Made by a program: the position numbers and the translations under genes | Shown: piece by piece, positions 1 through 38,574 of the stretch | How the letters are laid out: each line of letters starts with the position of its first letter | Numbering within the stretch: position 1 is the first letter of the stretch | DNA from: Cladochytrium replicatum | Lineage: Eukaryota > Chytridiomycota > Chytridiomycetes > Cladochytriales > Cladochytriaceae | Assembly: GCA_025526935.1 (NCBI GenBank) | Contig: JAHLKD010000157.1 | Coordinates: 1-46,310, forward strand | Length of the DNA stretch: 46,310 nt | Reading direction: 5' to 3' | The notes under the pieces: model-generated | Databases searched by the model: none | What the model saw: only the letters and a program-made list of their open reading frames with translations | What the model was told of the DNA's origin: nothing

Positions 1-1707
1 CGCGAGTGAGTGGTTCAGTACGGATGACGATAGATCGAGTCATTTGGGTTGTTGTTGTATGTGGGCATGGTCGGATTTCGTGCTCTCTTTTTGACGTTTT
101 CGGGATTGTCTTTTCACAACACGGAATCTTTGCTGCGCAGATGCAGCAAATCTGATAACGGGAAACACAATTACATTTTGTTCGATGCATAAGATCGCAT
201 GGACGGGTGTCTTTGTCTACAGTTTCCTGTCCCATAATCTGGATCCGATTAAATTGTGGACTGGAATAGTGGATCCATCTGCAGTCACCCCCATCAAGCT
301 TTGATTCAATTCTACTTCCACTCAAAGATATGTCTTCTAGTCTCTGTCTTGTGTATTAATACGACATCTTGACAAACTGCACGAAAAAACTTCATGAGGT
401 AACTATTTAGCTTAGCAAAGGAAAAAAAGCAAAGTCCAAGAAAAGGATGAAAATAATCACATTTGACATGATTAATATTGATATTTCAAGGTAATCTTAT
501 TGACCCAAACCATCGCTCATTCTTTAATGCAATATGTTGAACTCAGTTTCTCTTATGTCAAAGTATGGTCGATGTACTAGAAGAGCAGTCTGGAATGACC
601 TCAACTGTTCAGGTGTACGTCCACACCATTGGGGGCTCGAGGTTCTGTTCGCAGACGGTGATGTAGATTGAGACAAGCAAGGGACTCTTGAGCTTTCCAA
701 GTTCTTTGCAGTCTGACCAGTTGAAGTGGTAGTACGTCCTATGGTTTGTTTAATGAATCCGCACTTCCTTGGACAGCTAGTAAAACCACTCTCGAATGTA
801 GCAGTCCCAACAAGGTCCTGTATTTATGTTCTCTCTGACTGTCATTATTGTGCTCCTTATTTTGTTGCGGACATGTTTCGCCATTCACAGGTTGTGGTCA
901 TCGACAGTGCAGAGGGGTAGTGGCTTGAACTCGGTCTCCAAATTTGCACCATATGCTTCTGCCCATAGCTTGGACTGTTCTGTGTACGTGAGAGGTAATC
1001 CTGAGGTCTTGCACCTCATGCTGCTGCCTGAGGCTCTTTGTTTGGTGCAAACAATTCAAATATACTGTCCCTTCAGCTGTTTTAATTATCCTGGGACTGT
1101 AGATTTATAGGAATAGAGAGATATAGATCCCAGAGATCGTTCACAATAATCATTGTGAGCAGAACATGAAGATTAGCTCTAATCTTGTCTACGCTAACAT
1201 GTTCTCAATGAGAAATAGGTATATATGCGAGATGTACTGAAGTATGATATAATTGTCTGCAGCAAACTGATTAGCATCACATTCTTTCTCAAACGCGTGA
1301 TCACTCACTCCCAGAGCTCAACAAGACTCCAATGAGTACAAGAGGATGTCTTCATGAGCAATACTTAGAATGCCAGTTCTCTCATGTAATTAATGTATGA
1401 TTACGTATGAGCTTGTCCCAGACTCTCTGGTAAGGTTATGTCCCCGCGGGTCCGTAGTAGATGAAGACTGGAGTAGCTAATTTCATTATGTGCATGTCCA
1501 GAAGCTGAAAGCTGAGATTGCAGAGGAAGTTTTTTAGCGGAGGAGTGCCCGTTAAAAGATAATTTTGCGCACTTCCCATCAGCTTTCCAACCGCATGAAC
1601 GTTTCATTAGAGCGTGAATAGTTCAAGCTGTCGTGTCAGGCACGTTCATATTCAAGTATCTCTCGCTAATTCGGGAGAAGTAAACAGTAATAATAAATCT
1701 GATGTCG
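1..1707. other. Intergenic region without a recognisable gene
   Basis: I find no convincing coding region. The reading frames are short, lack recognisable motifs and do not join through credible introns. The stretch is AT-leaning with scattered A/T runs. The only structure that stands out is the stem-loop cluster at 1141-1205, listed separately. An untranslated region of a gene lying to the left cannot be excluded. Confidence 0.5.
1141..1205. repeat. Cluster of perfect stem-loops
   Basis: Three perfect inverted repeats sit in 65 bp. TCACAAT (1141-1147) pairs with ATTGTGA (1152-1158) over a 4-nt loop. AGAACATG (1161-1168) pairs with CATGTTCT (1198-1205). Directly inside it AAGATTA (1169-1175) pairs with TAATCTT (1180-1186) over a 4-nt loop. 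The arms are visible directly in the sequence. A structured RNA, a small palindromic mobile element or chance are all possible. Confidence 0.4.
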
Positions 1708-1790
1708 TGAGGAGAGTGGGATTCGAACCCACGCTTCCGAAGAAACCACGGCCTTAACGTGGCGCCTTAGACCGACTCGGCCATCTCCCC
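1708..1790 (-). tRNA. tRNA-Leu (anticodon AAG)
   Basis: Read on the minus strand, this folds as a type II tRNA. It has a 7-bp acceptor stem (GGGGAGA with TCTCCTC, one G-U pair), the anticodon stem CCACG/CGTGG around loop TTAAGGC, which gives anticodon AAG, a long variable arm with a TTCG loop, the T arm GTGGG-TTCGAAT-CCCAC, and discriminator base A. There is no intron. It decodes CUU leucine codons. No run of four T follows within about 40 nt, so the terminator is unclear. A LINE fragment begins 7 bp upstream of its 5' end. Confidence 0.96.
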
Positions 1791-1797
1791 TGACAAA

Positions 1798-2292
1798 ATC
1801 GGCTTGGCCGCCTGTTTCCAAACCCCCGACCTTATTGTAGGAACTGTCATGATGCCCCTGAAGTGTCGCGTGCCCATGTCTCTGTGTGTCTACATTTGCG
1901 TGCTAGTTTGTCTGCTAGTTTTGATTTAGGCCCGCTGACGATCCCCGCCTACCTCTTGACATTGCAATTGATATGCTTTCACCACGGCCTTTTTATCCTT
2001 CCCCTGCTTTTTCCCAGTGGGTTCTTGTTCTTCGTGCACTTAACCGCATTGGTCAAACTGTCTTGGTTATGAGTTAGTTTGTCTCCAGCTCCTGATTGTA
2101 TCTTGTCTGCTTTTGTTGATTTGGATATGCCTTAGTGTTTTGAAACATTTTACTTTTCCTACGGCTCGCACGGCTCCCCATGTGCTGCCAATTTACGTGT
2201 ATTTTACACTTGTATTTGGATTTTGCACCAGCGGGTGATATGTATTGGTTGGACAATAAATACATATTATGAGGTTCAAAAAAAAAAAAAAA
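1798..2292 (+). mobile_element. LINE family A, 5'-truncated 3' end
   Basis: From 1798 the sequence matches the last ~480 bp of the full-length LINE A nearby (6812-7308). It includes the end of ORF2, the 3' UTR with the tail motif AATAAATACATATTATGA, and a poly(A) run at about 2278-2292. The truncated ORF2 remnant has indels that break its frame. The 5' junction lies only 7 bp from the tRNA-Leu 5' end, and the next LINE starts directly at the poly(A) run. The geometry is element 5' end beside the tRNA and poly(A) end away from it. Confidence 0.9.
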
Positions 2293-2369
2293 TCTCTCTC
2301 TCTCTCCTTCTCTCTGTCCTCTATCTCTCTCTCTCTCTCCTCTCTCCTCTCTCATCTCTCAAAAATCAA

Positions 2370-3775
2370 ATGCCGGCCTCCCTCGCGCTCCGCATGCGCA
2401 GCCGCATGATGCGCCGCATGCCGGACCGCCCGCCGCACCCCCCGCTGGGCCCCCTGATGGACTTTCTGGGTGGGCACCGTGATTTTGTGAAGGGCCCGTT
2501 CGCACCCCCCGTGCCTCCTCTGTTGAAAATTCCGCTCCACAGCTTCCATTCTCCGCTCCTGCCTCTCCAATTCACTGGGCTGATGATGTGAATATGGGGG
2601 AGGATGAAAATGCCGAATCACGTGACTTCCGATCACGTGACCGACGCGCCAAAAGACCTGCTGAACATGAATTGCCCCGTGTCGCTCCCGTTTCTCGTTC
2701 CCGATCACATCTGCCCGGTGTCCGGGTTCTTGCTGCTGTGGCTGCTCCCTCGAGTGTTGCATCTCTGGCCGATCTCCGTGTCGTTCTCACTCAGATGCGA
2801 TCTGTTTGTGCAACCTTTGATCCGTTGGCGATGCTGGATCCTATGCTTGCACATTTGCCGAGGGACACTCCTGCTGAATTTTTAGTGTTTGTCGTGATAT
2901 GGCCGAGGATCTGGTGGGTCGCTTTGGGAGGCCGCTGCCTTCGCCTTCACCTCCGGTTGCCCCTGTCTCCCGCCATGATGATGTGGCTGCGCCTGTGTGC
3001 CTTCCCCCTAGACAACTGCATGGTAATCCTCCAATTCAGGACGATCTTGGGAACTCTGGTGCTCCTGGCCCTCGCCCCCCGTCTAGTCGACCTGCCCCAC
3101 GTGGACCTCAGTGGTCCACGCACTTATGCCGCTGCTGCTGCCAATGCCCGTGCCCGTGTGCTTGAGAGTCTCCCCACACTGAGTGCTGAATCTCGTACAG
3201 AAGCTGTCAGGACTGCCCTTGCTGGTCGTGACCCCACTTCGAATGTCAGCCTTCGTGGCCCTCAGGCCTGTCGTATTCTATCCTCCGACCTCTCCGCTGC
3301 TGGTCTCCCCACCTGCTGATCTTCAGGCCCGTGTGGATGATTTGACCACTGTGTACATCAAGGACATCATGAGACAGCGGCTCGGCTTTGTGCGGACCAT
3401 GCTGAGGGCTCTCTTGGGCGATGAGGTGGTGCGTGGTATCCCCACATCAGTTTCGTTGGTCGCAACATTGCTTCCTTTATCTGTATTCGCTCAACCGCAA
3501 TTGCTCTCCGTGCGCACTTCTCCACCCAGGAAGCTTCCACTGACGAATCAAACCCTGACTTCCTTCGTCGAGCCTCTACTCTGCCTTTGGAGCAGCGGGA
3601 GGCTGCGGTCAGGGAAGTTGTCCACAAGAGATATGCACATATCCTCAGTTCAGTTACTGATCCTGCTATTTTCCTGTATGTCCGTGGTCAGCTCCCCATG
3701 GATGCTCAGGAAACTGTGCTGGACAGTGCCCGCGGGATTGCGCGTCAGCCTCGCTCAACCCATCTTCGTCAATGA
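2370..3775 (+). pseudogene. LINE A ORF1 (nucleic-acid-binding protein), frameshifted
   Basis: The start ATG at 2370 follows the motif CAAAAATCAA, which also precedes ORF1 of family B. The product would be the RNA-binding ORF1 protein of the retrotransposition particle. Recognisable segments are spread over all three forward frames, with breaks near 2580, 2885, 3115, 3300 and 3450. Its final ~60 codons (3587-3775) align with the ORF1 C-terminus of family B (shared VHKR-AH and DPA-F motifs). The N-terminal half is rich in Pro, Arg and Ala. It ends in TGA overlapping the ORF2 start. Either ORF1 has decayed while ORF2 stayed open, or the assembly holds indel errors; I cannot tell which. Confidence 0.75.
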
Positions 3776-6700
3776 TTAGTGTTCGAGTTGGTACCTTCAA
3801 TTGTCGAAATTTGAGCCTTGGAGTTCTTGATTCACTGTTTCGTTTTATGCGCGCAAATCACATTGTTTTTCTGCTCCTGACTGAAACACACCTTTTTCCT
3901 TTAGACCCGCTGCCTTCCCCAGATTTGATTTTTGACACTCGTTTTTCTCCTGGGTCATCGGGTACAAGACGGGCTGGTGTGGGAGTCTTGATCAATCGCA
4001 GTCTTTGTAGAGCTTCTGATTTCCGTCTCGTTTCTAGTTATGGTGGCACCTCTATATGGTTTACATTTCGTGGGCTTTTGGTTGGAGGGTATTATTTGCC
4101 TCCGTGTGGTATTGCTCTAGACCCCTTCCTTGAAGAGTTTATTGCTTCACTTCCTCAACATGTCCCGTCGTCTCCGTGCCCTGTTCTTTTGTTGGGCGAT
4201 TTCAATGCCCGTTTTTTAGCTACTGGTGATCATTCTTCAAATTGTAGGGGTAGGTTGTTTGAGCAATTTATTTCTGCCGCTAGTTTCTCTCTAGTTAAGC
4301 ACCCTTCCTGTCATAACCCCACATTTTCTTCTCGCAATGGTGACTCCATTATCGATTTGTTGTTTGTCAATCCTCTGCTTCAATGTGATCCTATTTCTTA
4401 CATAGTTCATAGTCGTCTAGCCGACGGCGAGTTTATGCCTTGGGCTTCTGACCATTTTCCGGTTACAGCTGTTTTTTCTTTTGCTCCTCCCAATGCCAGC
4501 GCTCCCTCTGCTGCACCTCCCCACAAGCGCTGGGCTGCTCATCTGTTGCGTGAACCTGCTGTCTTTCAAGCAATGGAGGATGTGGGACATTTGTTTTTTG
4601 ATCCCACCCTTGCTGATGTCAATGCTGCGCTCAGTCCAATTTTAGAAGCTCCCGCCTTTGCCCAAATGTCTGTGGATGTTGCACAGGGATGTATTGACTC
4701 TGCATTGGATATTATTTTGTCCTTTGTTACTTCGTGTGCTGCTTGTGTCATTGGACCCCCCCGTTTAGTTCGCCGTCGCCCTGCCCTGCCATTGTTGCCG
4801 CCGCATTTAGTGGCCTTGCGACGGAGCTACTTACTTGCTCATAAGCACTATTTAGCTGTTTCTTCCTGTGATGATCCTGATCCTGTTTTAGTTGAGTATT
4901 GCCGCTTGGAGCGTGACCGGCTATCGCGTGAGCGTGTCAAAGCTTTTCGTACTTGGTCTCTTTCTCTGCGAGCTCGAGAGGCTTCTGGCGACAATATGTT
5001 TAGTTCTTCTCCTAGTTCTTTAACCGAGGTTAGCAAAGTTCTTTCCACCGCGCGTAGGTGTCATCAACGGCGCTCAGCTGCAAGTGGTTTATTGTCTGAT
5101 CCTGCCTCTTTATCTCATTATCGCAATCACTTTGCCTCTGTTTATCAGACTCAGTTTGCACAATCCTCTGCCAGTGCAGAACACGTTCGTCTACATGCGC
5201 TGAATGATTCCGTGTCAGTTAGTGTTAGTGACTTTGTTTGTGCTATTCGTTCTTCCCCAAACAACTCTGCTCCTGGCCCAAACCATATTCCAGCTGAGTT
5301 ATTTAAGCCGTTAGCTTCTGATGTTGCTATCCTTTTTGTTCAACTTTCAAACGCTATTTTCCGTTCAGGTTTGTCGCCCTCTGCCTGGAATGCTGGCTTG
5401 TTGTTACCTGTTTGGAAGAATAAGGGCTCCATTGGTGATATTAGTCAGTACCGCCCCATTACTTTAACCAATGTTGATAGAAAAATCTTTGAGCGTACCC
5501 TGCTTCCTATGCTTGTAGCTCATGTTGGTAAACTTGATCCCGCCCAAGCTGGTTTCCAGGCCAATCGTTCAGGTGTTGAGTGTGTTTTTGCATTAGATGC
5601 TACGCTTCGACGGGCTTCCCGCACTGCTCTGCCTTATTGTGTTACTTTCTTAGATATTAAAGCAGCGTATGATACTGTGTATAGGCCTCTTTTGTGGGAA
5701 CGTCTTCATCAATTTCCCAGAATTCCAAACCGTTTGATCTCTGTTTTGATGAGTATGTTTGATCGTTGTTCTTCTCAGGTTGTTATAGAGAATCGTTCTT
5801 CTGATTTGTTTTCGCTTCCACGAGGTCTTTTTCAAGGTTCTGTTTTGTCTCCGTTCTTGTACTCAGTTTTCATCAATCCTTTAGCACAGCTCCTTCGTCG
5901 TGAATCTTCTCATCTTGCTAGGTTTTCTTATAATACTCCTGTTTTCAATTCGTTGTTTTTGGCTGATGACATAGCTTTGCTTTCTGCCACCCCTGAGCAG
6001 GCCCAACGTGCATTGAAACTTTGTGAAGATTTTGCTTTAGCTTCTCATTTTGTGTTTTCACCTTCAAAGTGTGCTGTGTTATCTTCTCAACGGTTACCCA
6101 CCCCCTTGAAGCTTCATGGCTCTGCCCTCCCTGTAGAGGTTTCATTTAGATACCTTGGTCACTATTTTACTATTGAAGGGTTTGATCTTGCTGCAACTAT
6201 TGATCATCGCTTAGAGAAAGCTCGTGCCTCATTGTATCTTTTTGCACCTTATGTCTCGTACTTTGGTGGGTCTGCTCCTCGTGTTGCCAGGTTGTTGTTT
6301 TTGTCTTTTATTAGACCTTCACTTGAGTTTGGTTTAGCACTTATTCGGCCTTCCACTGCTCAGCTTCAGGTACTCGAGCGTTTTTGTTATCATGCACTGT
6401 GTCGTCTGTTTTCGCTAGCCCATACGACGTCGCGTGTTGGTTTGTTGCTGTTAGCGCAAATTCCTACTTTTGAGTTCAGGCTGAAGTACCTTCAGGCACG
6501 TATGTTTGCTCGCTGGTATAGTGATTCCAGCCCTCTGTTACCAGCTACTGTGTTGCAATTCTATCAGTCATCTCCAGTAGGTTATGGTTCATCTCCTTAT
6601 TTTTCCGCTTGTCACAATGATCTCATTGTTCCTATGCCTGTTGTGCCCCCACTTCATCCGTTGATGTTGCATTTTCAGTCTTTAGCTGTTGCACATAATG

Positions 6701-7152
6701 GACCAATTGCAGTTTCGTTTGCCCCTGTCCGCAATTTGAAACTTCGCCACCCTTTGTTGCTACCCCCACACCAACATCTCCCAACAGTATGTCTTCGTTT
6801 GTTCCTGCTATATCGGCTTGGCCGCCTGTTTCCAAACCCCCGACCTTATTGTAGGAACTGTGATGATGCCCCTGAAGTGTCGCGTGCCCATGTCTCTGTG
6901 TGTCTATATTTGCGTGCTAGTTTGTCTGCTAGTTTTGATCTAGGCCCGCCTGACGATCCCCGCCTACCTCTTGACATTGCAATTGATATGCTTTCACAAC
7001 GGCCTTTTTATCCTTCCCCTGCTTTTTCCCAGTGGGTTCTTGTTCTTCGTGCACTTAACCGCATTTGGTCAAACTGTCTTGGTTATGAGTTAGTTTTGTC
7101 TCCAGCTCCTGATTGTATCTTGTCTGCTTTTGTTGATTTGGATATGCCTTAG
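3772..7152 (+). CDS. LINE A ORF2: APE endonuclease-reverse transcriptase
   Basis: This is an uninterrupted 1126-codon frame. Residues ~1-235 form an exonuclease/endonuclease/phosphatase domain with TFNCR near residue 8, TETHL near 38, LLGDFNAR near 140 and catalytic SDHF near 226. The reverse transcriptase follows (~500-800): YRPITLTNVDRKIFER near 561, AQAGF near 592, FLDIKAAYDT near 626, and the FLADD catalytic box near 729. A C-terminal CX2CX9HX3C motif (from residue 1027) resembles the zinc-binding tail of L1-type ORF2 proteins. The enzyme would nick target DNA and prime reverse transcription there. All key residues are present, so this copy may be competent. The ATG overlaps the ORF1 stop. 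Confidence 0.95.
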   Translation: MISVRVGTFNCRNLSLGVLDSLFRFMRANHIVFLLLTETHLFPLDPLPSPDLIFDTRFSPGSSGTRRAGVGVLINRSLCRASDFRLVSSYGGTSIWFTFRGLLVGGYYLPPCGIALDPFLEEFIASLPQHVPSSPCPVLLLGDFNARFLATGDHSSNCRGRLFEQFISAASFSLVKHPSCHNPTFSSRNGDSIIDLLFVNPLLQCDPISYIVHSRLADGEFMPWASDHFPVTAVFSFAPPNASAPSAAPPHKRWAAHLLREPAVFQAMEDVGHLFFDPTLADVNAALSPILEAPAFAQMSVDVAQGCIDSALDIILSFVTSCAACVIGPPRLVRRRPALPLLPPHLVALRRSYLLAHKHYLAVSSCDDPDPVLVEYCRLERDRLSRERVKAFRTWSLSLRAREASGDNMFSSSPSSLTEVSKVLSTARRCHQRRSAASGLLSDPASLSHYRNHFASVYQTQFAQSSASAEHVRLHALNDSVSVSVSDFVCAIRSSPNNSAPGPNHIPAELFKPLASDVAILFVQLSNAIFRSGLSPSAWNAGLLLPVWKNKGSIGDISQYRPITLTNVDRKIFERTLLPMLVAHVGKLDPAQAGFQANRSGVECVFALDATLRRASRTALPYCVTFLDIKAAYDTVYRPLLWERLHQFPRIPNRLISVLMSMFDRCSSQVVIENRSSDLFSLPRGLFQGSVLSPFLYSVFINPLAQLLRRESSHLARFSYNTPVFNSLFLADDIALLSATPEQAQRALKLCEDFALASHFVFSPSKCAVLSSQRLPTPLKLHGSALPVEVSFRYLGHYFTIEGFDLAATIDHRLEKARASLYLFAPYVSYFGGSAPRVARLLFLSFIRPSLEFGLALIRPSTAQLQVLERFCYHALCRLFSLAHTTSRVGLLLLAQIPTFEFRLKYLQARMFARWYSDSSPLLPATVLQFYQSSPVGYGSSPYFSACHNDLIVPMPVVPPLHPLMLHFQSLAVAHNGPIAVSFAPVRNLKLRHPLLLPPHQHLPTVCLRLFLLYRLGRLFPNPRPYCRNCDDAPEVSRAHVSVCLYLRASLSASFDLGPPDDPRLPLDIAIDMLSQRPFYPSPAFSQWVLVLRALNRIWSNCLGYELVLSPAPDCILSAFVDLDMP

Positions 7153-7308
7153 TGTTTTGAAACGTTTTACTTTTCCTACGGCTCGCACGGCTCCCCATGT
7201 GCTGCCAATTTACGTGTATATTTACACTTGTATTTGGATTTTGCACCAGCGGGTGATATGTATTGGTTGGACAATAAATACATATTATGAAGTTCAAAAA
7301 AAAAAAGC

Positions 7309-7710
7309 AATTGATAGCCTTTGTCCACTTCAAATTGTCAACCCAGCGAATCTTGCACCGTGTCATCTAGTTTTTCGTTGTCTCCATAAGATTTGGCTTC
7401 ACTGTATGGGTCTGCCATTAGAAGTTTCTCCTCCAGACTCCCTCTTTGGCCCTGCATTTGTGGATCTTTAACGTTTTCTTTTCTCATTATTTATTACTCA
7501 CCTGTTTTTTTGGCACCTTAGCAGTATCTGACAGGTAGCCACAGGTTTGAGTTTACATTCTCTGTTTTGCTTTGTTGCTTTTCCTTATGCTGCGCGCGCT
7601 TCCCTATGTGCTGGTCCATGACCATCTTGTAAGGCACTTTGGGTGTTGTTTTTTGTTATGCATTGTATGTGCAAAATAAATAAAAATATTGTTAAAATTT
7701 TTTTTTTAGA
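7309..7710 (+). mobile_element. LINE family B, 5'-truncated 3' end
   Basis: It starts directly after the poly(A) of the full-length A copy with sequence matching 34765 onward of the full-length B copy. It covers the last ~50 ORF2 codons, the 3' UTR with the GGCACTTTGGGTGTTG motif, the AATAAATAAAAATATTGTT tail and a short A run, followed by a run of T. It is oriented like its neighbours and forms the third member of the tandem stack beside tRNA-Leu. Confidence 0.88.
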
Positions 7711-7762
7711 TTTTGATATTAGTTAAACCGGATTTCTGTCAATGCCATGCTCAGACAAATTT

Positions 7763-8163
7763 GAGAAGCTACTGCCCTTGCCCAAATGTCTGTGGATGTT
7801 GCACAGGGATGTATTGAGATATTATTTTGTCCTTTGTTACTTCATGCGCTGCTTGTGTCATTGGACCTCGCAGTTTAGTTTGTGATCACCCTGCCCTGCC
7901 ATTGTTGCCGCCGCATTTCATGGCCTTGCGACGGAGCTACTTACTTGCTCATAAGCACCTTTTAACTATTTCTTCCTGTGATGATCCTGATCCTGCTTTA
8001 GTTGAGTATTTTGCTTCGAGCGTGACCAGCTATCGCGTGAGAGTGTCAAAGCTTTTCGTACTTGGTCTCTTTCTCAGCGAGCTCGAGAGGCTTCTAGCCA
8101 CAATGTGTTCAGTTCTTCTCCTGGTTCTTTAACTGAGGTTAGCAAAGTTCTTCCCACTGCGCT
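7763..8163 (+). mobile_element. LINE family A internal fragment
   Basis: This matches about 4647-5052 of the full-length A copy, the linker between endonuclease and reverse transcriptase. Small deletions and substitutions break the frame (one visible at about 7818). Neither a 5' nor a poly(A) end remains. It is the member of this stack furthest from tRNA-Leu and is more degraded than the others. It abuts the gypsy-derived region. Confidence 0.8.
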
Positions 8164-9700: not shown

Positions 9701-10039
9701 CCTGTCTTAATTTTTCTGTACCAATAACTCTACCAGGTATCTGAAAATAATGCTTAGGACATTCAAATAAATGACTTTTTCGAAGTAAAAATTGTTTAGC
9801 AAGTGTCCAAGCTTTTATCCATGCAGAATCACTCAATTCTTCCCAGCATTCACCAGTAGCCAAATAATGACATAAACCCCACGATTCTCTGTCATAATTG
9901 TCAACACTGAAATCTAAAGGAGAAATAGTAGAAGTAATTGAAGAGATGGAATTAGAACTGAAGAGGAAATCATCAAACTCTACTTCAGCATCAGTAGAAT
10001 CAGGAACAACATGACCAGGTAAGGCAATTCGAGACATTG

Positions 10040-11212: not shown

Positions 11213-11709
11213 TTTTTCTTCATTATTTCAATAGCACATGCACATTCTGCTTCTAACAAAAATTCTTCATCTCCAATTTGAACTTTTTATATTCGTTATT
11301 CAGTTAATCCACATCCTTCAGTTTTCTTCTTTTCTCTAATCTGGTCCACAATTTGTTCTTCACTTAAAGATTCTGTTAGTTGTTCTGGTGATATTCCAGG
11401 TTTTGCGACTGGTCTAACTTTCTTTCCAACTGGTTTATGTTTTCTCTTTGCTGCTTCAGGTCTTATCTCAAAATTCATACTTCTTTCTCATTTTGCTGAC
11501 TGATTCAATCCAAACCCTTCTTTTGCTCTTTTTTCTTCTCCTTTGCCTTGCTTTATTCCCTCTTGCAATGGAATATATTCACCAATTGCATGAAGTTCAT
11601 ATCCACCATCTGTTTCATATTGTCTTCTATCAACTATAAAATACCTATCTCCAATCTCTATGTTCATAATTGTTGTTCGCCTTCTTAGTTCTTTGGTGCT
11701 CTGAGCTCT

Positions 11710-17523: not shown

Positions 17524-18375
17524 TATGTTGGACATAAACATTGGTGAATAAAAGTCCGAACTGGTTTGCAAACAGCAACAGAGGGAAGAATAAAATATAA
17601 ACCAAATTCAGGCGTGTCGAATAAAAGACAAAAACAAATGACGAACTACAACCAGAGAATGAGAACCAAACATCCTTGAAAAAGAAAGCAAAGCAAAATA
17701 AGCTGCACGTGCTTTAGCAAGTCGATGGGAAACAGTCAGTGAAACATCAAATCCAGTATTTCCAAAAAAGCAACCCAAATAACTAAATGAAGGCTTGACG
17801 GGCAGGGTTTGACATGAAGAAGCAAAGGCAAATTAGCAGGAACAGGAATTCTTGTGAGAATTACACACTTCAAAGGAGCAAAATAAAAACCATGAGCTTG
17901 GGCAAACTGTTCACAAACAGAGAGAAGAAGAACCTGCATAGCTTCCAAAGTAAGTGCAAACAAAGCCAAATCATCTGCAAATAAAAAAGAATTGTATCGT
18001 GATTTGGCAGGGTGAAAGAGCATTATAGGAGGGGCAAACAGTCAGAGGAGCACAGACATAGGATCAAGAAAAGTGATATAGAGAAGTGGACTGAGAACAG
18101 AACCTTGAAACAAACCTCTAAACAAATCAAAAAGGATCTGAAAAGCAATTGCAACAACCTCTCTGGAAGAACAAAAGTCAAACAGAGACTTCAAAACAAC
18201 AACATATAGGGTACTCTCCTAGAAAGAAGCTCAGCCCAAAGAATTGCATGATTTGTGGTGTCATAAGCTGCTTGAATATCTAAAAAACCAGCAACCCAAG
18301 GAACCTTGGCATTAGACGCACGGGAGATACATACCTGAAGACCACAATGACATTCTATCATAAAGGGGTGTAACT
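17524..18375 (-). mobile_element. LINE family B internal fragment
   Basis: On the minus strand this matches about 33400-34215 of the full-length B copy, the core of the reverse transcriptase. The catalytic box FLFADDLALF is visible at about 17950-18000, as is the segment FSDIQAAYDTTN (here FLDIQAAYDTTN) near 18270. Indels break the frame. It lacks both element ends and is the member of the tRNA-Trp stack furthest from the tRNA gene. Confidence 0.88.
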
Positions 18376-18404
18376 GAATAACCAATTCTATTTTCTCCTT
18401 TTCT

Positions 18405-18520
18405 TTGAACTTAATAATATGTATTTATTTTCCAACCATTTCCATATCACCCGCTGGTCCTTAGTTTGGCAGCAGATATACACTCTTATAATATATATAT
18501 AAAATAAAATGTTTTTAAAG
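18405..18520 (-). mobile_element. LINE family A 3' tail, degraded
   Basis: The reverse complement of the A tail (AATATGTATTTATT, then ATATCACCCGCTGGT) is visible with several substitutions, followed by TTGGCAGCAG and AT-rich filler. It is shorter and more diverged than the two A tails closer to tRNA-Trp. Confidence 0.7.
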
Positions 18521-18655
18521 TTTTTTTTTTTGAACTTCATAATATGTATTTATTGTCCAACCAATAAATATCACCCGCTGGTGCAAAATCCAAATACAAG
18601 TGTAAAATTACACGTAAATTGGCAGCACATGGGTGTACCTGCAAGCCGTAGAAAA
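18521..18655 (-). mobile_element. LINE family A 3' UTR fragment with poly(A)
   Basis: A minus-strand poly(A) (the T run at 18521-18531) is followed by the A 3' UTR up to about 18655, with a few substitutions. It is 5'-truncated within the 3' UTR. It lies between a degraded A tail and a longer A copy in the same orientation. Confidence 0.85.
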
Positions 18656-18688
18656 AGTTTTTTTTATAAAGTTTTTAATATGTAAAGT

Positions 18689-19413
18689 TTTTTTTTTTTG
18701 AACTTCATAATATGTATTTATTGTCCAACCAATACATATCACCCGCTGGTGCAAAATCCAAATACAAGTGTAAATATACACGTAAATTGGCAGCACATGG
18801 GGAGCCGTGCGAGCCGTAGGAAAAGTAAAACGTTTCAAAACACTAAGGCATATCCAAATCAACAAAAGCAGACAAGATACAATCAGGAGCTGGAGACAAA
18901 ACTAACTCATAACCAAGACAGTTTGACCAAATGCGGTTAAGTGCACGAAGAACAAGAACCCACTGGGAAAAAGCAGGGGAAGGATAAAAAGGCCGTGGTG
19001 AAAGCATATCAATTGCAATGTCAAGAGGTAGGCGGGGATCGTCAGGCGGGCCTAGATCAAAACTAGCAGACAAACTAGCACGCAAATATAGACACACAGA
19101 GACATGGGCACGCGACACTTCAGGGGCATCATCCCAGTTCCTACAATAAGGTCGGGGGTTTGGAAACAGGCGGCCAAGCCGATATAGCAGGAACAAACGA
19201 AGACATACTGTTGGGAGATGTTGGTGTGGGGGTAGCAACAAAGGGTGGCGAAGTTGCAAATTGCGGACAGGGGCAAACGAAATTGCAATTGGTCCATTAT
19301 GCGCAACAGCTAAAGACTGAAAATGCAACATCAACAGATGAAGTGGGAGCACAACAGGCATAGGAACAATGAGATCATTGCGACAAGCGGAAAAATAAGG
19401 AGATGAACCGTAA
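18689..19413 (-). mobile_element. LINE family A, 5'-truncated copy beside tRNA-Trp
   Basis: The minus strand matches about 6583-7306 of the full-length A copy: the last ~190 codons of ORF2 with the Cys/His tail, the 3' UTR and poly(A). One zinc-motif Cys is changed (NCDD to NWDD). The remaining frame is open (18843-19418 region). Similarity to A stops at about 19412-19414, roughly 40 bp upstream of the tRNA-Trp 5' end. The element points away from the tRNA gene. Confidence 0.92.
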
Positions 19414-19452
19414 GTCACTGGACATCACCGATAGAATTTGGCTCCTGGCTCA

Positions 19453-19524
19453 GATCCCTTGGCGCAACGGTAGCGCGTCTGACTCCAGATCAGAAGGTTA
19501 AGTGTTCAAATCACTTAGGGGTCA
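19453..19524 (+). tRNA. tRNA-Trp (anticodon CCA)
   Basis: The acceptor stem is GATCCCT with AGGGGTC (one G-U pair). The D arm contains GGCGCAACGGTAGCGC, the anticodon stem TCTGA/TCAGA encloses loop CTCCAGA (anticodon CCA), the T arm is TAAGT-GTTCAAATC-ACTTA, and the discriminator is A. No intron. It reads the UGG codon. TTTT at 19551-19554 is a likely Pol III terminator. A stack of LINE A and B copies lies immediately upstream on the opposite strand. Confidence 0.96.
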
Positions 19525-28837: not shown

Positions 28838-28909
28838 CTCTCAGTCCGGGAATCGAACCCGGGTCTTCTCCGTGACAGGGAGAGATACTAGCCACTATAC
28901 TAACTGAGA
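28838..28909 (-). tRNA. tRNA-Asp (anticodon GTC)
   Basis: On the minus strand the acceptor stem TCTCAGT/ACTGAGA is perfectly paired. The D arm contains TAGTATAGTGGCTAGTA, the anticodon stem TCTCC/GGAGA encloses loop CTGTCAC (anticodon GTC), the T arm is CCCGG-GTTCGATT-CCCGG, and the discriminator is G. No intron. It decodes GAC/GAU. A LINE-derived element starts directly upstream on the opposite strand. Confidence 0.96.
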
Positions 28910-30190
28910 TTTCAATGACGTGAGTCTCTGCCATGATCATTTGCACCTCACCTCCGGTTATCCATCGCAACTGTGAGCCTTGTACCCCTGCTGCCCTTCT
29001 TTTCACCTCTGCTCCTCTCTCCCTTAGCTCTCCATTGACCCTCTCACCTGCTTCTCTTCTGAGCAGTCTGCTGACTAGCAGGGGCTACTCCTCTGCTCAT
29101 CCCTTATCTCTCTCACTTGCCTCTGCTCTGCCTTCTGACTTTGCAAGTTCCCTGACCTTCCTAAAGTGCTCTGCACTTCTATTGCGCTCCATTTCTGCTC
29201 TCTCCCCTGCTACCCTCAACCCTGATCTGCTTCCAACTCTCCCTGCTTCTCCTCCACATTTACACGTCGCTGCCACCTGTGCCCTTGGTGCCACCAACAC
29301 TGCCACCAGCACTGCCCCTGGTGCCACCCACACTGCCACCACCACTCTTGACAGTTCAGCCACCTGCTCAGCCCCATCTCCAGCCTCATCACCTGCCACC
29401 AATGATTCCATGAATGAGCTTACTTGTTCGCACTTCCTCTTGGACGACCTGCCGACCTCGCATAGAAGCTTCAAATTTGTCAAAGAATGTGCCGAATCCT
29501 TCACTACTCTCCGATTTTCTGGTTTTACTCGTCGCCCAATCAGGGACCTTCGTGTGTTGCTTCGCAAAGATCTTCCGTATACCGCTTACCATGGCATCCG
29601 CTACATCTCATTTCTCGGCTCTGATTCTGTTGAATTTCTTTGTCGTTCTTATGCTGCTGATCTGATCCGCAAACACATACCTGGTCGAGAAATCACTGAT
29701 TTGGATGTGTCCCCTCCTTCGTATTCTGACAGTTCCGACTCTCTGCAACGCTATGACTCTCTGCTCCATCGAAGTGCCAAGGCGATTGCTACTACGTCTG
29801 AGCCAGCTGTTGCATTGTTCTACCGCAATCTTGTTGATCCGTCTCATCTTTCTACGCTGTTGCATCTCGCTCGATCATATGCCCCTTCGATGACCTCAGC
29901 TTCTGACCTTCGTTTGACCCAGTGATTTGCTCTTTGCTGTTATATTCTTCACATTGTTGAGTGTTCTTTCTTTTCTTTATCCCTCACCTGTATTTGACAC
30001 CTGAGCAGAGCCTGACGGGTTGTCACAGGAATGAGTTTTTTAAGATCTCAGATTTCTATTTCGCTTCGTCCTCCGACTTGTGCGCATCCCTATGTGCTGG
30101 TCCACGACCATCTTGTAAGGCACTTTGGGTGTTGTTTATTGTTATGCATTGTATGTGCAAATAAATAAATAATATTGTTAAAAAAAAAAA
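28910..30190 (+). mobile_element. ORF1-only LINE-derived element with a family B 3' end
   Basis: It contains one open frame homologous to LINE ORF1 (28933-29925). The frame is followed directly by ~265 bp of 3' UTR related to family B (CTCACCTGT, CTGACGGGT, GGCACTTTGGGTGTTG, AATAAATAATATTGTTAAAA) and poly(A) at 30180-30191. There is no trace of ORF2. It is a candidate non-autonomous element that uses the family B machinery through its shared tail. The 5' boundary is not visible; the copy may be truncated next to tRNA-Asp. Confidence 0.8.
28933..29925 (+). CDS. LINE ORF1-like protein
   Basis: This is an intact 330-codon frame. The N-terminal ~150 residues are Ser/Thr/Ala/Pro-rich, low complexity and probably disordered. 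The C-terminal ~170 residues align with the C-terminal domain of the family B ORF1: RFSGFTRRPIRDLRVLL, HGIRYISFLGS, VEFLCRSYAADLIRKHIPG, and a DSLLHRSAKAI segment. ORF1 proteins of LINEs bind their RNA in the particle. No zinc knuckle or RRM is recognisable by eye. The frame is open even though there is no ORF2, which suggests selection or recent origin. The first ATG (28933) lies 23 bp from tRNA-Asp; the true start may have been lost. Confidence 0.75.
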   Translation: MIICTSPPVIHRNCEPCTPAALLFTSAPLSLSSPLTLSPASLLSSLLTSRGYSSAHPLSLSLASALPSDFASSLTFLKCSALLLRSISALSPATLNPDLLPTLPASPPHLHVAATCALGATNTATSTAPGATHTATTTLDSSATCSAPSPASSPATNDSMNELTCSHFLLDDLPTSHRSFKFVKECAESFTTLRFSGFTRRPIRDLRVLLRKDLPYTAYHGIRYISFLGSDSVEFLCRSYAADLIRKHIPGREITDLDVSPPSYSDSSDSLQRYDSLLHRSAKAIATTSEPAVALFYRNLVDPSHLSTLLHLARSYAPSMTSASDLRLTQ

Positions 30191-30234
30191 AGCTCTCTCT
30201 CTCTCTCTCTCTCTCTCCTCTCTCTCAAAAATCA

Positions 30235-31644
30235 ATGCCGCCTCCCAGCGCTCCGCCTGCGCAGCTGCCTGACGCGCCGCATTCCGCGCCGCCCGCCGCA
30301 CCCCCCTCCAAAATTTTCATCGCTTCTGGCTGTGCTCGCTCCCGTGCTCCCTCTGTGTCCCACCCTCGCGCCCCTCAGGAAAATATTCCTGACTCTCAGC
30401 CCAGCAACTTTGATGGAGAAAATTTTCTGTGGGCAGATGAAGTGAATTCTCCTCTCGAATCACGTGACCGCCGATCACATGACCAAGCATCATCCACTTC
30501 AGAACTGGCTCGAATTAGAGGACGGTCCCCCGCAAGTGTCGTTGATGTTCACATGAATGATACAGTCGAAATGTCACTTACCATTGCTGATGCTGATCCC
30601 AAAGGGAAACGTCGAGCCTCAAAATCACCCCCGACTTGCCGACCTCCTTCTCGTGCCAGGGTCGAGAAGAATGCATCTGCAGCTGATCATGCTACCTCTC
30701 CCTTGCCTACTCCTCGTGACCGATTCTTGGATGCTCTGCATATGCTGGGCCCTGCTCAAACTTCTGGATCTCATCCATTAGTGATGTCTGCTTTCACTCG
30801 TGCAATACAATTTCTCCCAGTATTGGAACCAGAAACTGAGGCTGCCTTCTTTGCTGCATTGACTATTGCTGTAGTTCCGTTGGTTGAAACTATCAGCTGC
30901 CTTCCTGCTGCTGTCTCTGCCGTGCCTTCCTATGCTCAAGTTGCGAGTGCTAGCCGAACGCCACCTGCCCCTGCTACTCACAATCCTGGGCCTTTCTGCA
31001 CTGCAAAATTTGCCTCTCGTGCATCAAATGCTATTGTTCGTATTGAAGCTGCCGAAGCTGATGCTCAATCCGCCCTTTATCGCTCAGTGGTTGCTGGAGT
31101 GGACCCCCTATCTCGCAGATCACTACGGCCACCCAGATTGGTGATTGATTACCCGGCTGAGTCACCAATTCTGATCAATCCTCCTCAGCCTGTTCGTGAT
31201 CGTGCTGCTGGTTTTGCTACTGTGAGGTTTAAGGAAATTAGTCGTCAGCCACTTAATCAGCTCCGCACTCTGATTAATCGAATTTCTGGAAACCCTCAAT
31301 TTTCGCGTGACATTCGCCATATTAGTTTTATTGGGCGTAACACTGCTGAGTTTATTTGTACTTCTGACTATGCTGACAAGCTCCGCAAGGATATTTTTCC
31401 AGGTGATGAGGTGCTGGTTGATCTTTTTGCCCCTGGGCAGCTTCGTTCTGGGTCTGTTCAATCACTTGAGCAACGTCAAGTTGCTGTAGCAAAGGCTGTT
31501 CACAAAAGATTTGCTCACCTCTTGCAAATTACTCATGATCCTGCAGTTTTTCATTATCTTTGTTCTAATCTTCCTGGTGCAGACTTTGAAGCTACTGTTT
31601 CTTTAGCCCGTTCTTCGCGTTCTGAACCTACATCTCGCAATTAA
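30235..31644 (+). CDS. LINE B ORF1 protein
   Basis: An intact 469-codon frame begins at the ATG after CAAAAATCA. Residues ~1-45 are Pro/Ala-rich. Residues ~45-330 are Ser/Pro/Arg-rich with several disordered stretches. The conserved C-terminal domain (~320-460) contains ATVRFKEISRQPLNQLRTL, IRHISFIGRNTAEFIC and VAKAVHKRFAHLL, shared with family A ORF1 and the ORF1-only element. By analogy with other LINEs it binds element RNA. It ends in TAA, whose last base is the A of the ORF2 ATG. Confidence 0.85.
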   Translation: MPPPSAPPAQLPDAPHSAPPAAPPSKIFIASGCARSRAPSVSHPRAPQENIPDSQPSNFDGENFLWADEVNSPLESRDRRSHDQASSTSELARIRGRSPASVVDVHMNDTVEMSLTIADADPKGKRRASKSPPTCRPPSRARVEKNASAADHATSPLPTPRDRFLDALHMLGPAQTSGSHPLVMSAFTRAIQFLPVLEPETEAAFFAALTIAVVPLVETISCLPAAVSAVPSYAQVASASRTPPAPATHNPGPFCTAKFASRASNAIVRIEAAEADAQSALYRSVVAGVDPLSRRSLRPPRLVIDYPAESPILINPPQPVRDRAAGFATVRFKEISRQPLNQLRTLINRISGNPQFSRDIRHISFIGRNTAEFICTSDYADKLRKDIFPGDEVLVDLFAPGQLRSGSVQSLEQRQVAVAKAVHKRFAHLLQITHDPAVFHYLCSNLPGADFEATVSLARSSRSEPTSRN

Positions 31645-34600
31645 TGTGGACTTTTCGTTCTGGAACCTTCAACTGTAGAGGTTTGCCTCTGGATTTTTCA
31701 GATTTACTTGCTTGGCTTGTTACTCATCAGCTTGATTTTTTAGTTTTAACAGAAACTCACCAGTTAACTTTAGACAGTATTTCTTCAGAGTATTTGTTGT
31801 TTGATTCTCGTCCTCCACCAGATGCTCCTTTGGCACCTGGTGTTGCTCTTCTTATTAACCCACATCGTTGCAGTACTTATCAATTTAGGTTGATTGCATC
31901 AGTTCCTTCTGGGTTTGGTTTGTGGTTTAGGTTTCGTCAGGTCGTGATTGGTGGATTTTATTTTCCCCCACGTTGGACTGCGGAAGACTGTTTGGGTGCA
32001 TTATCTGATTTTCCTCAATTTGTTTCGAATTCGGATACACCAGTAGTTTTGATGGGTGACTTCAATTTTAGAACTCAGAGCACTGGTGATCATGTTACTA
32101 ATGCCCATGCCAGAGCACTTCTTCCTTTTTTTACAGCCCACTCACTTTCGTTGGTTGTCCCAGCTTCTTCTTCAGCTCGTCGCCCAACTTTTCGTTCCCA
32201 CTTAGGGACTTCAATTATTGATTTGTTTTTTGCTTCTACTTATGTTACAGCTTCCTCTTATTTAGTGCATGATCAACCCCAGTCTATGGCTCCCCATCCT
32301 TCAGACTATTTTGCAGTGACCTGTTCATTTTCTTTAGCTGGCCCAGATCCTCAGGCCACTGTGCCTCCTCCTCTACCTTCTTGGAATGTCCGATTGTTAA
32401 AGGATGAAGTTATTCGTAAGTCGCACAGAGAAACTGCTAAGATTCTGCTTCCTCCAACATCAGAGGCGCTAACAGCAGCATTGGAACCACTTCAGGTCCC
32501 TGTGGGGACTTCACTTTCTCGTGCAGTGGCCCAGGGAGCAATTGATTCCGCATTTCAAATTATAGTTGATTTTGTTGAGGCAGCAGCAGTTCTGACATTG
32601 GGACCACCAACACCTCGTCGTAGAGCACCAGCGACCACTCCTTTGCCCCCTGAGATTGCTTTGTTGCGTAGTAAGGCTCGTTCAGCATTCCGTGACTATT
32701 ATTCCCTCTTTCACCACAATTCTTCTGACCCTCTTCTTCCTTTTCTAAGAACTCGCCAACGTGATAGTCACAAAGCATTCAAATCAGCTCTGAGATCACA
32801 CAGGCGTAAGACAAAAGCAAAGTTTTTTGATGACCCTAGTTCTTCATCAGTGCCTTCTCTTCTGAAACATGTGTCTCATGCTCAGCGCTATGCTACCTTT
32901 CGTACTTCAGCTAATGGTTTAGATTTTGATACTCAGTCTTTAGCCACATATTCTGATCATTTTGCTAGTGTCTACAATGCTCAGGCTGCTGACCCAGTTT
33001 CACCTTCAATTGTTCTGTATGATTTTCAGCTGCTATTGGATGTTGAAGCTTTTGTTCTAGCTATTAGGGACTGCCCTTTGCAGTCTGCCCCGGGTCATAA
33101 TCGTCTGCCTGCAGAACTTTATCGCCCAATTTCAGCTATTCTTGCTCCATTGTTCTTGCAAGTTTCTCAGTCCATTTTTCGCAGTAGTCTTACACCCACT
33201 TCATGAATCTTGGGCTTTTGCACCCAGTTTGGAAGCACGTGGTACACTTGGTGACATTACTAATTATCGCTCAACCACTCTTTCGTGTGCTGCCCAAAAA
33301 GTTTTCGAGCGAGCTTTGTTGCCACATCTTTATTCTGCTATCACGTCTCAACGCCTACTTGATGATGCCCAAGCTGGATTTCAGTCACACCGCTCGGGAA
33401 TGGAATGTTGTTTTGGTCTTCAGGCATGTATCTCCCGTGCGTCTAATGCCAAGGTTCCTTGGGTTGCTGGTTTTTCAGATATTCAAGCAGCTTATGACAC
33501 CACAAATCGTGCAATTCTTTGGGCTGAGCTTCTTTCTTGGGGAGTACCGTTGCCATTTGTTTTTGTTTTGAAGTCTGTTCGATTTTTGTTCTTCCAGAGT
33601 GGTTGTTGCAAATTGTTTTTCAGATGCTTTTGATTTGTTTAGAGGTTTGTTTCAAGGTTCTGTTCTCAGTCCACTTCTCTATATCACTTTTTTTGATCCT
33701 CTATCCGACCATTTGCCCCACCTATAACACTCTTTCATCCTGCCAAACCACGATATAATTCTTTTTTATTTGCAGATGATTTGGCCTTGTTTGCACTTAC
33801 TTTGGATGCTATGCAGGTTCTTCTCTCTGTTTGTGACCAGTTTGCCCAAGCTCGTGGTTTTTCTTTTGCTCCTTTGAAGTCTGTGATTCTCACAAGAATT
33901 CCTATTCCTGCTCATTCGCCTTTGCTTCTTCATGGTCAAACTCTGCCTGTCAAGCCTTTATTTCGTTATCTGGGTTGCTTTTTTGGAGATACTGGATTTA
34001 ATGTTTCACTGACTATTTCCCATCGACTTGCCAAAGCGTGCGCAGCTTCTTTTGCTTTGCTTTCTTTTTCAAGGATGTTTGGTTCTCATTCTCTGGTTGT
34101 GGTTTGTCATTTGTTTTTGTCTTTTATTCGACCTACGCTTGAATTTGGTTTATATTTTATTCTTCCATCTGTTGCTGTTTGCAAACCAGTTCAGACTTTT
34201 ATTCACCAATGTTTGTGTCGATTTTTTCTCCTTTCATTTTCCACTTCAATTGCTGGGGTTTTAATGTTTTTTAAGTTTCCTGACCTTCAGTTTCGGCTTC
34301 AATATCTACAGTTTCAGATGTTTCAACGTTGGCTGGATGATGACACCCCTGATATGGTTCACTCTATGTTGTCATTCTTTCTTCACCAGGGAAAGCACTT
34401 TCGTTGTTCTCCTGTCCCTTTCAACAATCACTTCCTCTTCCCGGCTGCAAATGTTGTAGTTCCCAAATCTTCTGATGTTATCGCAAATCACTTTCACCAA
34501 GTAGCCTCATCTGCCTATGGTTCTATAGATGCTAGCTTTGCTCCCCTTGCATCTGCACACCCTCATGCGCTAGCAATTGCTCCTCCATGCTTCCCTATTT

Positions 34601-34930
34601 CGTTAATCTTGAGGCTTCTGCAGGAGTTTGTTTTATCACCCCCGCAAGCAGTGTTGTCGCTGCCGTACTGCAACTCTCTCTAGATCTCATGTTTCAGAAT
34701 GTTTGCGTCTTGACCTATTGTTGCCTCCTGTTCCTGTTCCTGTTTTACAACTTCCGCTTGACGTTGCAATTGATAGCCTTTGTCCACTTCGCATTGTCAA
34801 CCCAGCGAATCTTGCACCGTGGTATCTAGTTTTTCGTTGTCTCCATAAGATTTGGCTTTACTGTATGGGTCTGCCATTAGAAGTTTCTCCTCCAGACTCC
34901 CTCTTTGGCCCTGCATTTGTGGATCTTTAA
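31644..34930 (+). pseudogene. LINE B ORF2, endonuclease-reverse transcriptase, broken
   Basis: The endonuclease and start of the reverse transcriptase are open (31644-33206, 520 codons): TFNCRGL, VLTETH, LMGDFNFR. In the last catalytic motif the expected SDH reads SDYF, so the catalytic His is replaced by Tyr. The frame then breaks near 33195, 33620, 33720 and 34650. Reverse transcriptase motifs remain readable across frames: DAQAGFQ and DIQAAYDTT near 33370-33500, and FLFADDLALF at 33760-33790. The C-terminal CX2CX8HX3C motif lies near 34645-34695 and the end GPAFVDL at 34930. It is about as long as the intact family A ORF2 (1126 codons). Confidence 0.9.
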
Positions 34931-35165
34931 CGGTTTCTTTTTTCATTATTTATTACTCACCTGTTTTTTTGGCACCTTAGCAGTATCTGACGGGTAGCCA
35001 CTGGTTTGAGTTTACATTCTCTGTTTTGCTTTTGTTGCTTTTCCTTATGCTGCGCGCACTTCCCTATGTACTGGTCCATGACCATCTTGTAAGGCACTTT
35101 GGGTGTTGTTTTTTGTTATGCATTGTATGTGCAAAATAAATAATAATATTGTTAAAAAAAAAATT

Positions 35166-35298
35166 AGTCTCTCTTTTGTTTTTTATCCTTATGCTGCGCG
35201 CGCTTCCCTATGTGCTGGTCCATGACCATCTTGTAAGGCACTTTGGGTGTTGTTTATTGTTATGCATTGTATGTGCAAATAAATAAATAATATTGTTC
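35166..35298 (+). mobile_element. LINE family B 3' UTR fragment
   Basis: From about 35185 it repeats the last ~115 bp of the B 3' UTR (CTTATGCTGCGCGCGC to AATAAATAATATTGTT). It begins right after the A run of the full-length B copy. Its tail matches that of the ORF1-only element better than that of the full-length B copy. Confidence 0.85.
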
Positions 35299-35374
35299 CA
35301 AAATATAAAAAAGATTATTTTTGTTCTGCATTTTATCATCAAAAGATGTGTGCTAAAAAATGGAAGAAACAAAA

Positions 35375-35455
35375 GTTTTATACTTGTATTTTAATTCTGC
35401 ACCAGCGGGTGATATGTATTGGTTGGAAATGAATACATATTATGAAGATTTTCAA
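35375..35455 (+). mobile_element. LINE family A 3' tail, degraded
   Basis: ACTTGTATTTTAATTCTGCACC is followed by AGCGGGTGATATGTATTGG and GAATACATATTATGAAG, the A 3' end with substitutions and a small deletion. It is the most distal and most diverged member of the tRNA-Asp stack. Confidence 0.75.
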
Positions 35456-36028
35456 AGAATCAATATGCTGAAATAATTATAATAATTATATTTAGAAATA
35501 TGTTCAAGAATATAACGTTTAAATCAGGTTTTACCAGAGACTACAGCAAAGACCGAGATTATGTTCATCACAATGGTTAAAAGTTGTGTTCGTAATTAGA
35601 CAGAAGCTCTGATCTTTCATTCAGTGATGGATGCAGCCGTCCACCACAAATGCTAAAAGTTCTGTCCATCTCTATGGTTGAAGTTCTGTTCCTCACTATG
35701 GTGTAAAACTGGACGGTGGTCTTAGAGTAGCTCACATTCAGCAAAATTTACTTGATCGATATAGTTTTGCAAACAAGACTCTGCTTTTCAAATTTCAGTC
35801 TGTTCGCAATTGGAAACCAAAAATAGCTCTCTTTATTAAATCTCAATAATTTCAACCAACAGATCTTAATGAGTAGGTCAATATCATTTTACGCTCACTG
35901 TATGAAGATCATTTTCCCGTCAGGTTCTCAGCCCCGTCCCACACCGTACTTCCTCAGATTCGATACCAAACATTTCCACCAAATTGTCCTCATTACAGAA
36001 CCCTCATCTGCGACCTGCACAGACCATC
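35456..36028. other. Noncoding AT-rich region
   Basis: No gene is seen. A loosely repeated phrase built around GGTT(A/G)AAGTT(G/C)TGTTC occurs near 35575, 35655 and 35680, too diverged to define a repeat family. Confidence 0.4.
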
Positions 36029-38571: not shown

Positions 38572-38574
38572 ACA

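Follow-up and report, generated by a model that had tools for sequence, protein, structure and literature searches.

LINE copies stacked upstream of tRNA genes in Cladochytrium replicatum and their probable guidance by Pol III promoters

Introduction

What places several LINE (long interspersed nuclear element) copies one behind the other immediately upstream of a transfer RNA (tRNA) gene, all of them pointing away from it? The question is raised by a 46,310-nucleotide stretch of DNA from the chytrid Cladochytrium replicatum (contig JAHLKD010000157.1 of assembly GCA_025526935.1), which was analysed over its whole length and is called the window here; it is contig C157 of the 50.5-Mb assembly and carries three tRNA genes, for tRNA-Leu, tRNA-Trp and tRNA-Asp. 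The original prediction, made from the letters alone, described four head-to-tail pieces of two LINEs, A and B, at the tRNA-Leu gene and proposed that such elements are guided to the initiation region of RNA polymerase III (Pol III). Here, tRNA genes and element 5′ ends were sampled from the assembly, together with two further elements, C and the short interspersed nuclear element (SINE) S. The results make it very probable that A and B are guided to tRNA upstreams by the complex formed on type-2 (A-box/B-box) Pol III promoters.

Results

Outward-pointing elements start within a few bases of tRNA genes

The tRNA genes were sampled as 62 genome matches recognised by Rfam alone, with 63 scored of 2278 loose candidates. 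A match cut by a contig end (L081) and a duplicate (L070) were removed and two second tRNAs were added, giving 62 distinct upstreams; three upstreams that had been reached via LINEs or the window were left out. The analysis of these upstreams showed an element start pointing away from the gene within 10 bp at 28/62, within 20 bp at 46/62, within 35 bp at 50/62, within 110 bp at 57/62 and within 400 bp at 61/62, and no inward-pointing element was found within 400 bp upstream at any of the 62. The spacer in the 50 upstreams with a start within 35 bp had a median of 9 bp, a middle half of 6-12 bp and a range of 0-33 bp, and it was 2-6 bp long in 12 of them; it was measured to the start of the alignment or of the CT tract and is uncertain by a few bases. 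The tRNAs represented 15 anticodons, with others in the loci reached from the element side.

When equal flanks of 95 bp were compared, an element was present upstream of 52/62 genes and downstream of none (0/62). The Fisher test gave a P value of about 3e-23 for 50/62 (upstream, 35 bp) vs 0/62 (downstream, 95 bp). Longer downstream flanks, of about 1.5 kb in 34/65, contained two old matches, the nearest at 167 bp. The enrichment of junctions and the non-random orientation expected by the original prediction were borne out on samples taken in both directions, with 52/52 of the upstream elements in the equal flanks pointing outward.

Element 5′ ends face tRNA genes or the tails of other elements

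Sampling in the opposite direction covered 80 element 5′ ends (35 of A, 25 of B and 20 of S), taken in list order from 40 listed for each; these were the top-ranked matches, and the copy counts are not totals. Left out were the window copies, copies already in hand, an A copy on contig C111 that is likely a copy of the window stack, a B copy (C19:441185), an S copy (C76:9960) and the entries at the bottom of the B and S lists. A tRNA gene lay opposite 21 of the 80 ends and the tail of an element in the same orientation opposite 49. Two further ends faced a degenerate tRNA recognised by eye (L087, L120), three a long terminal repeat (LTR) of a Copia element (L094, L121, L130), and four, all of them SINE heads, a divergent LINE (L127, L133, L134, L138; L133 and L134 are copies of each other).

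SINE heads and a Copia LTR are used as landing sites

The Copia element encodes gag, integrase and RVT_2, and its repeats lie 4824 bp apart. At L185 (C39:390400-396100), its LTR was seen to carry A- and B-box-like motifs with tRNA spacing. These motifs run antisense to the open reading frame (ORF), with one mismatch in the A box and two in the B box, and stand 44 bp apart, as in S. Boxes of this quality at a spacing of 43-46 bp were found in the 46-kb window only in the tRNA-Trp and tRNA-Asp genes. The LTR motifs are possibly a Pol III promoter or a TFIIIC site.

Among 20 sampled LTR flanks (of 40 listed), 18 were empty and nearly identical and two were filled (L171, L174); three more filled LTRs were reached from the element side, giving five junctions in all. 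The five share one orientation and lie within a few bases of one another; the two that can be placed exactly are 12-15 bp upstream of the A box, and the corresponding median at tRNA genes is 7 + 9 = 16 bp. The divergent LINEs at SINE heads and the junctions in the Copia LTR show that both serve as landing sites for the elements.

Exact target duplications could be read at two LTR sites only. The A copy in L171 is flanked by a 3-bp duplication when compared with the empty site, and the S copy in L130/L182 has none, about one base having been lost. At tRNA genes, the duplications estimated for 29 innermost elements were 0-5 bp, from best-of-three alignments and near chance level.

Other Pol III genes gave a different picture. 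No A, B, C or S element was found upstream of the two U6 genes or of the eight 5S genes, and the elements at the 5S loci L042 and L046 lay on the opposite side, at distances above 500 bp.

Stacked copies appear newer toward the gene

At least two elements were stacked at 28/62 tRNAs, within the 1.6 kb or less examined. The gap between stacked copies, including the poly(A), had a median of 20 bp and a range of -2 to 148 bp over 47 pairs. The copy closer to its reference was the inner one in 34 pairs and the outer one in 12, with one tie (P = 0.0016), and in pairs of the same family the inner copy was closer in 13/16 (P = 0.02). An earlier version of this test, in which the C tail was merged into B, gave 32 vs 19 (P = 0.09), and the 34 vs 12 was obtained once the C tail had been defined. 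The test omits the L001 pair, the outer copy of which is the reference, the near-duplicate L056 and the two second tRNAs. Reuse of a site would require each new copy to be inserted between the gene and the older copies, and the divergence of the inner and outer copies indicates that newer copies are, as a rule, nearer the gene.

One locus appears to carry a trace of such an entry. At the tRNA-Arg(cct) gene in L083/L188, a diverged copy of the last spacer bases and of about 50-58 bp from the 5′ part of the same tRNA stands inside the stack, flanked by A on the outer and S on the inner side, with the intact gene at the base and B alongside. This diverged piece is best read as a long target duplication produced by a later, inner insertion.

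A tRNA-Ile-like 5′ fragment was also observed within the stack at L096 (C4:7633-8253) and L186. It was rejected as a second duplicated piece, the base of the stack being tRNA-Tyr; recombination between stacks is perhaps the source of the mismatch.

Features of the four elements

LINE A is about 5.0 kb long and starts with a (CT)n tract. Its ORF2 protein matched human LINE-1 (L1) ORF2p and R2 in PDB, and RNase H was not found in it by Pfam (E<=0.001). LINE B, also about 5.0 kb, shows 37% identity to A across the first half of ORF2; in its reference copy the ORF1 frame occupies 30169-31641 and ORF2 is broken, with the APE (apurinic/apyrimidinic endonuclease) part at 31626-33203 carrying a Pfam APE domain. 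The elements show the hallmarks of APE-type LINEs, namely 5′ truncation, 3′ poly(A) and no LTR, and A and B are, by their domains and structure, related APE-type LINEs (non-LTR retrotransposons).

Element C measures 1.26 kb and contains an ORF1 frame of 333 aa followed by a 3′ tail about 80% like that of LINE B; from this content it is taken to be an ORF1-only, non-autonomous element. A C-terminal region is common to the ORF1 proteins of A, B and C, and Pfam gave no significant match for it. The SINE S is 283 bp long; its head is tRNA-derived, with A and B boxes that have no mismatch to the consensus used and lie 44 bp apart, and its 3′ part is in common with A. A first look gave 197 loose candidates for the A 5′ region, 146 for the B 5′ region and 135 for the S head, and 40/40 of those scored matched for each. 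S has probably moved recently, because 19/40 of the listed S heads (one being the query) are 100% identical over 110 bp.

Three further observations concern the 5′ ends. The (CT)n tract of A and B varied from tens to about 200 bp among copies (L082-L121, L142-L161), possibly through template slippage at the end of cDNA synthesis. In L113 (C6:346967-347587), an A copy with a complete 5′ end abuts an internal A piece in inverted orientation, an arrangement that resembles a 5′ inversion by twin priming. Upstream of a tRNA-Lys gene on contig C66, a U6-like sequence (L020 1891-1979; 34.5 bits, below the family cut-off) sits between a B tail and a truncated A starting at A4265; it resembles a U6-LINE chimera or retrocopy and fits mobilisation by the same machinery. 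A4265 is also the start of the window A copy at tRNA-Trp.

The tRNA-Leu stack and the other tRNA loci of the window

The features of the window are collected in the table. The order A, A, B, A after a 7-bp spacer at tRNA-Leu was as originally predicted, and the blastn analysis showed that all four pieces point away from the gene; the outermost A piece begins at 7737 and not at 7763. The predicted direct passage from poly(A) to the next element was seen at two of the three boundaries, the third (7698-7736) lacking a clean poly(A). The body of the truncated A ends at 2288 with the poly(A) after it, the aligned part of the B piece covers 7307-7697, and the outermost A piece is the most diverged member of the stack. 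The same arrangement recurs at the two other tRNA loci, as had been stated: A is innermost at tRNA-Trp (19438-18689, minus strand), with older pieces beyond it, and C is innermost at tRNA-Asp.

Table. Positions of the tRNA genes and retroelement copies in the window. Numbers prefixed A or B are positions in the respective element.
Feature	Coordinates	Strand	Evidence
tRNA-Leu(aag), target gene	1707..1790	-	ARAGORN; Rfam RF00005 56.3 bits
7-bp spacer, tRNA-Leu 5′ end to innermost LINE	1791..1797	.	sequence
LINE A, 5′-truncated (A4520-5014, 98%), with poly(A)	1798..2292	+	blastn
LINE A, complete 5′ end, (CT)n start, poly(A) end; A reference copy	2293..7306	+	blastn
LINE A ORF2: APE endonuclease and reverse transcriptase	3775..7152	+	Pfam PF14529, PF03372, PF00078; PDB
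LINE B 3′ piece (B4577-4968, 97%)	7307..7710	+	blastn
LINE A internal piece (A2325-2761, 88%)	7737..8162	+	blastn
tRNA-Trp stack: A4265-5014 (98%), A4877-5014 (93%), A4953-5011 (90%), B3191-4030 (90%)	17531..19438	-	blastn
tRNA-Trp(cca), target gene	19453..19524	+	ARAGORN, Rfam RF00005
tRNA-Asp(gtc), target gene	28838..28909	-	ARAGORN, Rfam RF00005
Element C, innermost at tRNA-Asp	28924..30183	+	blastn
LINE B reference copy at tRNA-Asp	30190..35157	+	blastn, Pfam
Older tails of B (or C) and of A at the outer end of the tRNA-Asp stack	35173..35459	+	blastn
LINE A internal fragment (A1739-3204, 92%); no tail, no recognisable tRNA beside it	38572..40026	-	blastn

Over the stretch compared (C20:1700-2300), the start of contig C20 is 100% identical to the window at equal coordinates, and contig C111 carries a 99% copy of the same stretch; the window, C20 and C111 are probably duplicated or allelic contigs. 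Beyond the tRNA-Leu stack, the region 8861-12375 has a low GC content and integrase-like ORF text suggesting an LTR element, and Pfam gave no match for two ORFs of this region.

Discussion

Guidance by the Pol III promoter complex

Guidance to the Pol III initiation region, as first proposed, is the best reading of the data, because tRNA genes, SINE heads and the Copia LTR, which have A and B boxes in common, show a similar junction geometry. We propose that an A or B ribonucleoprotein would be drawn to a type-2 promoter loaded with TFIIIC/TFIIIB and would nick near the Pol III start, at a point about 9 bp before the mature tRNA 5′ end and about 16 bp upstream of the A box. Target-primed reverse transcription would then be completed with nearly opposed nicks, and the element would be written pointing away from the gene. 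The cut appears nearly blunt, with duplications of 3 and 0 bp at the exactly readable sites, and one duplication of about 60 bp was met. Because the promoter is internal and would survive each insertion, the site would stay live and the next copy would land between the gene and the previous one, building a stack that ages outward. The same machinery would also move S, C and, rarely, U6 RNA in trans. The case of S, which encodes no protein, suggests a choice of target by proteins that act in trans on the shared 3′ tail. The recognised feature would be TFIIIC/TFIIIB or Pol III, with the ORF1 or ORF2 protein as the candidate contact.

Position, orientation, stacking, order, duplications and the use of SINE heads and the LTR were all read from sequence, and the protein contacts are extrapolated from the dictyostelid element TRE5-A. 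Several points weigh against this reading. The tRNA genes, chosen without reference to LINEs, are the 62 top-scoring of the 2278 loose candidates. No element lies within 35 bp of 12/62 tRNAs: three of these 12 have their element behind another tRNA gene (L009, L074, L077), several carry decayed outward LINEs, which protein comparison places from about 45 bp in L050 and L052, and one of the 62 (L012) has no element in 1.5 kb upstream. One of the 80 sampled 5′ ends, in L113, is unexplained and faces the inverted A piece, and the internal A fragment of the window at 40026-38572 on the minus strand is likewise an exception. Other sequence, about 40-105 bp long, intervenes between certain stacked copies (L083, L096, L111, L157) and was recognised by eye as tRNA 5′ pieces in L083, L096 and L157; L157 was not traced to a tRNA within the DNA examined. 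The age test used single reference copies with families mixed. Most of the sampled LTR copies (18/20) are empty and their motifs are a putative promoter. The absence at 5S and U6 rests on eight and two genes, respectively, and TRE5-A does use 5S genes, vs 0/8 here. Searches for the signal recognition particle (SRP) and RNase P RNAs were without match, and their controls matched nowhere either, so absence is not shown for these genes.

Other explanations of the junction pattern

The strongest competitor, itself rather unlikely, is that the elements are steered not by the TFIIIB/TFIIIC proteins but by the nascent tRNA transcript or by the Pol III bubble once it is open. The junction falls within the expected start region, at 7 + 9 bp before the A box, where exposure of single-stranded DNA would be expected. 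Against this, insertions occur at the LTR site, which has no known transcript.

We consider it improbable that a sequence-specific endonuclease reads a DNA motif upstream of tRNA genes. Enzymes of the APE type can show site preference, and short T/A runs occur near some junctions, with T+A contents of 0.63 (first 8 bp) and 0.61 (25-32 bp) vs 0.51-0.55 in the elements. Over all 8-bp bins of the new upstream flank, the content varied between 0.49 and 0.63 and gave no clear signal, and no motif common to the spacers was found by eye (no motif program was run), on which ground specific cutting was rejected. After each insertion the new flank consists of LINE or SINE sequence, yet the next insertion occurs at a similar distance. 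Internal A and B boxes are common to tRNA genes, SINE heads and the LTR.

Selection in place of targeting has a still smaller chance of being correct. Upstreams of tRNA genes are in general tolerant sites, and random insertions might survive only there; such survival was rejected on the fixed orientation (0/62 inward within 400 bp), the narrow distance and the almost empty downstream flanks. Young copies, the identical SINE heads included, show the same pattern, and the 20 sampled SINE heads face tRNAs, element tails, a divergent LINE or the LTR. Finally, LINE reverse transcriptases do make 5′ chimeras, and the U6-like copy in L020 abuts a truncated A, but the notion that the tRNA is part of the element, acquired by template switching and co-mobilised at its 5′ end, is scarcely credible and was discarded, the tRNAs standing head-to-head with the LINE in the wrong orientation, bearing many anticodons and carrying stacks of at least two elements at nearly half of the sampled genes.

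Comparison with known targeting systems

The original prediction called the arrangement the best candidate in the window for an undescribed targeting system; the kind of system is, however, already described, as dictyostelid TRE5-A and NLTR-A do likewise (PMC5911963, PMC5006619, PMC5391098). Table 1 of PMC5911963, in the part available, lists tRNA-gene targeting by non-LTR retrotransposons for dictyostelids only, and the literature covered (titles and abstract openings, with most subscription journals outside the coverage) held no tRNA-gene-targeting LINE from elsewhere.

TRE5-A of Dictyostelium discoideum is also a LINE with APE and reverse transcriptase and two ORFs that inserts upstream of tRNA genes in the opposite orientation (PMC5911963, PMC5391098). 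It also uses loci with A and B boxes outside a tRNA context, comparable to the SINE heads and the Copia LTR here, at which promoter activity is putative. Its ORF1 protein binds TFIIIB, and mutation of the B box abolishes integration (PMC5911963, PMC5391098). This contact model is carried over to A and B by analogy. The distances differ, about 44-54 bp upstream for TRE5-A (PMC5911963, PMC5391098) and about 40-54 bp for the dictyostelid TRE5 group vs a median of 9 bp here, as does the occupancy: about 24% of tRNA genes for TRE5-A and 61% for any TRE, compared with 50/62 within 35 bp here. In the present system the sites are used jointly with a SINE and an ORF1-only element and stacks are built, features that the TRE5-A accounts, so far as available, do not mention. 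The nearest reported position among the systems compared is that of NLTR-A of Dictyostelium purpureum, a non-LTR element found 2-6 bp upstream of tRNA coding sequences; unlike A ORF2, in which none was found, it is described as having an RNase H domain (PMC5006619). The present system would work like TRE5-A and, in position, lies nearer NLTR-A; it is set apart from TRE5 by its position and, on eight genes, by 5S use, and from NLTR-A by the domains found in A.

Human LINE-1 and Alu combine APE and reverse transcriptase with 5′ truncation, poly(A), a SINE mobilised in trans and U6 chimera-like copies, and L1 is not known to have a tRNA-gene target. The elements described here share APE and reverse transcriptase, 5′ truncation, poly(A), a SINE and a U6 chimera-like copy with them and differ in their tRNA target.

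Ty3 and other Ty3/gypsy elements likewise insert at Pol III start sites in dependence on the A and B boxes; they are LTR retrotransposons with integrase, and Ty3 inserts in both orientations, in contrast to the fixed one here (PMC5911963). For the Yarrowia LINE Ylli, a poly(A)-bearing element of a yeast, target duplications were not identified, and the part of its description available states no tRNA targeting (PMC5014426).

What the stacks may mean

The near-saturation, the stacking and the double role of the SINE as passenger and landing pad are unusual here. On balance, we incline slightly to the view that LINEs, an ORF1-only element and a SINE form a consortium, outside the dictyostelids, to which any A/B-box Pol III promoter is readable, which has overwritten practically every tRNA upstream and which makes its own targets, each SINE copy being a fresh landing pad and the stacks serving as recorders of integration. 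A near-saturated system with natural empty and filled sites lends itself to testing how Pol III promoters are located by a LINE, and the stacks give the time order of insertions at a fixed locus. If the tRNA genes work with LINE sequence directly upstream, the tRNA upstream region would be largely dispensable, and the SINE, carried along and hit in turn, would amount to a landing pad that feeds itself.

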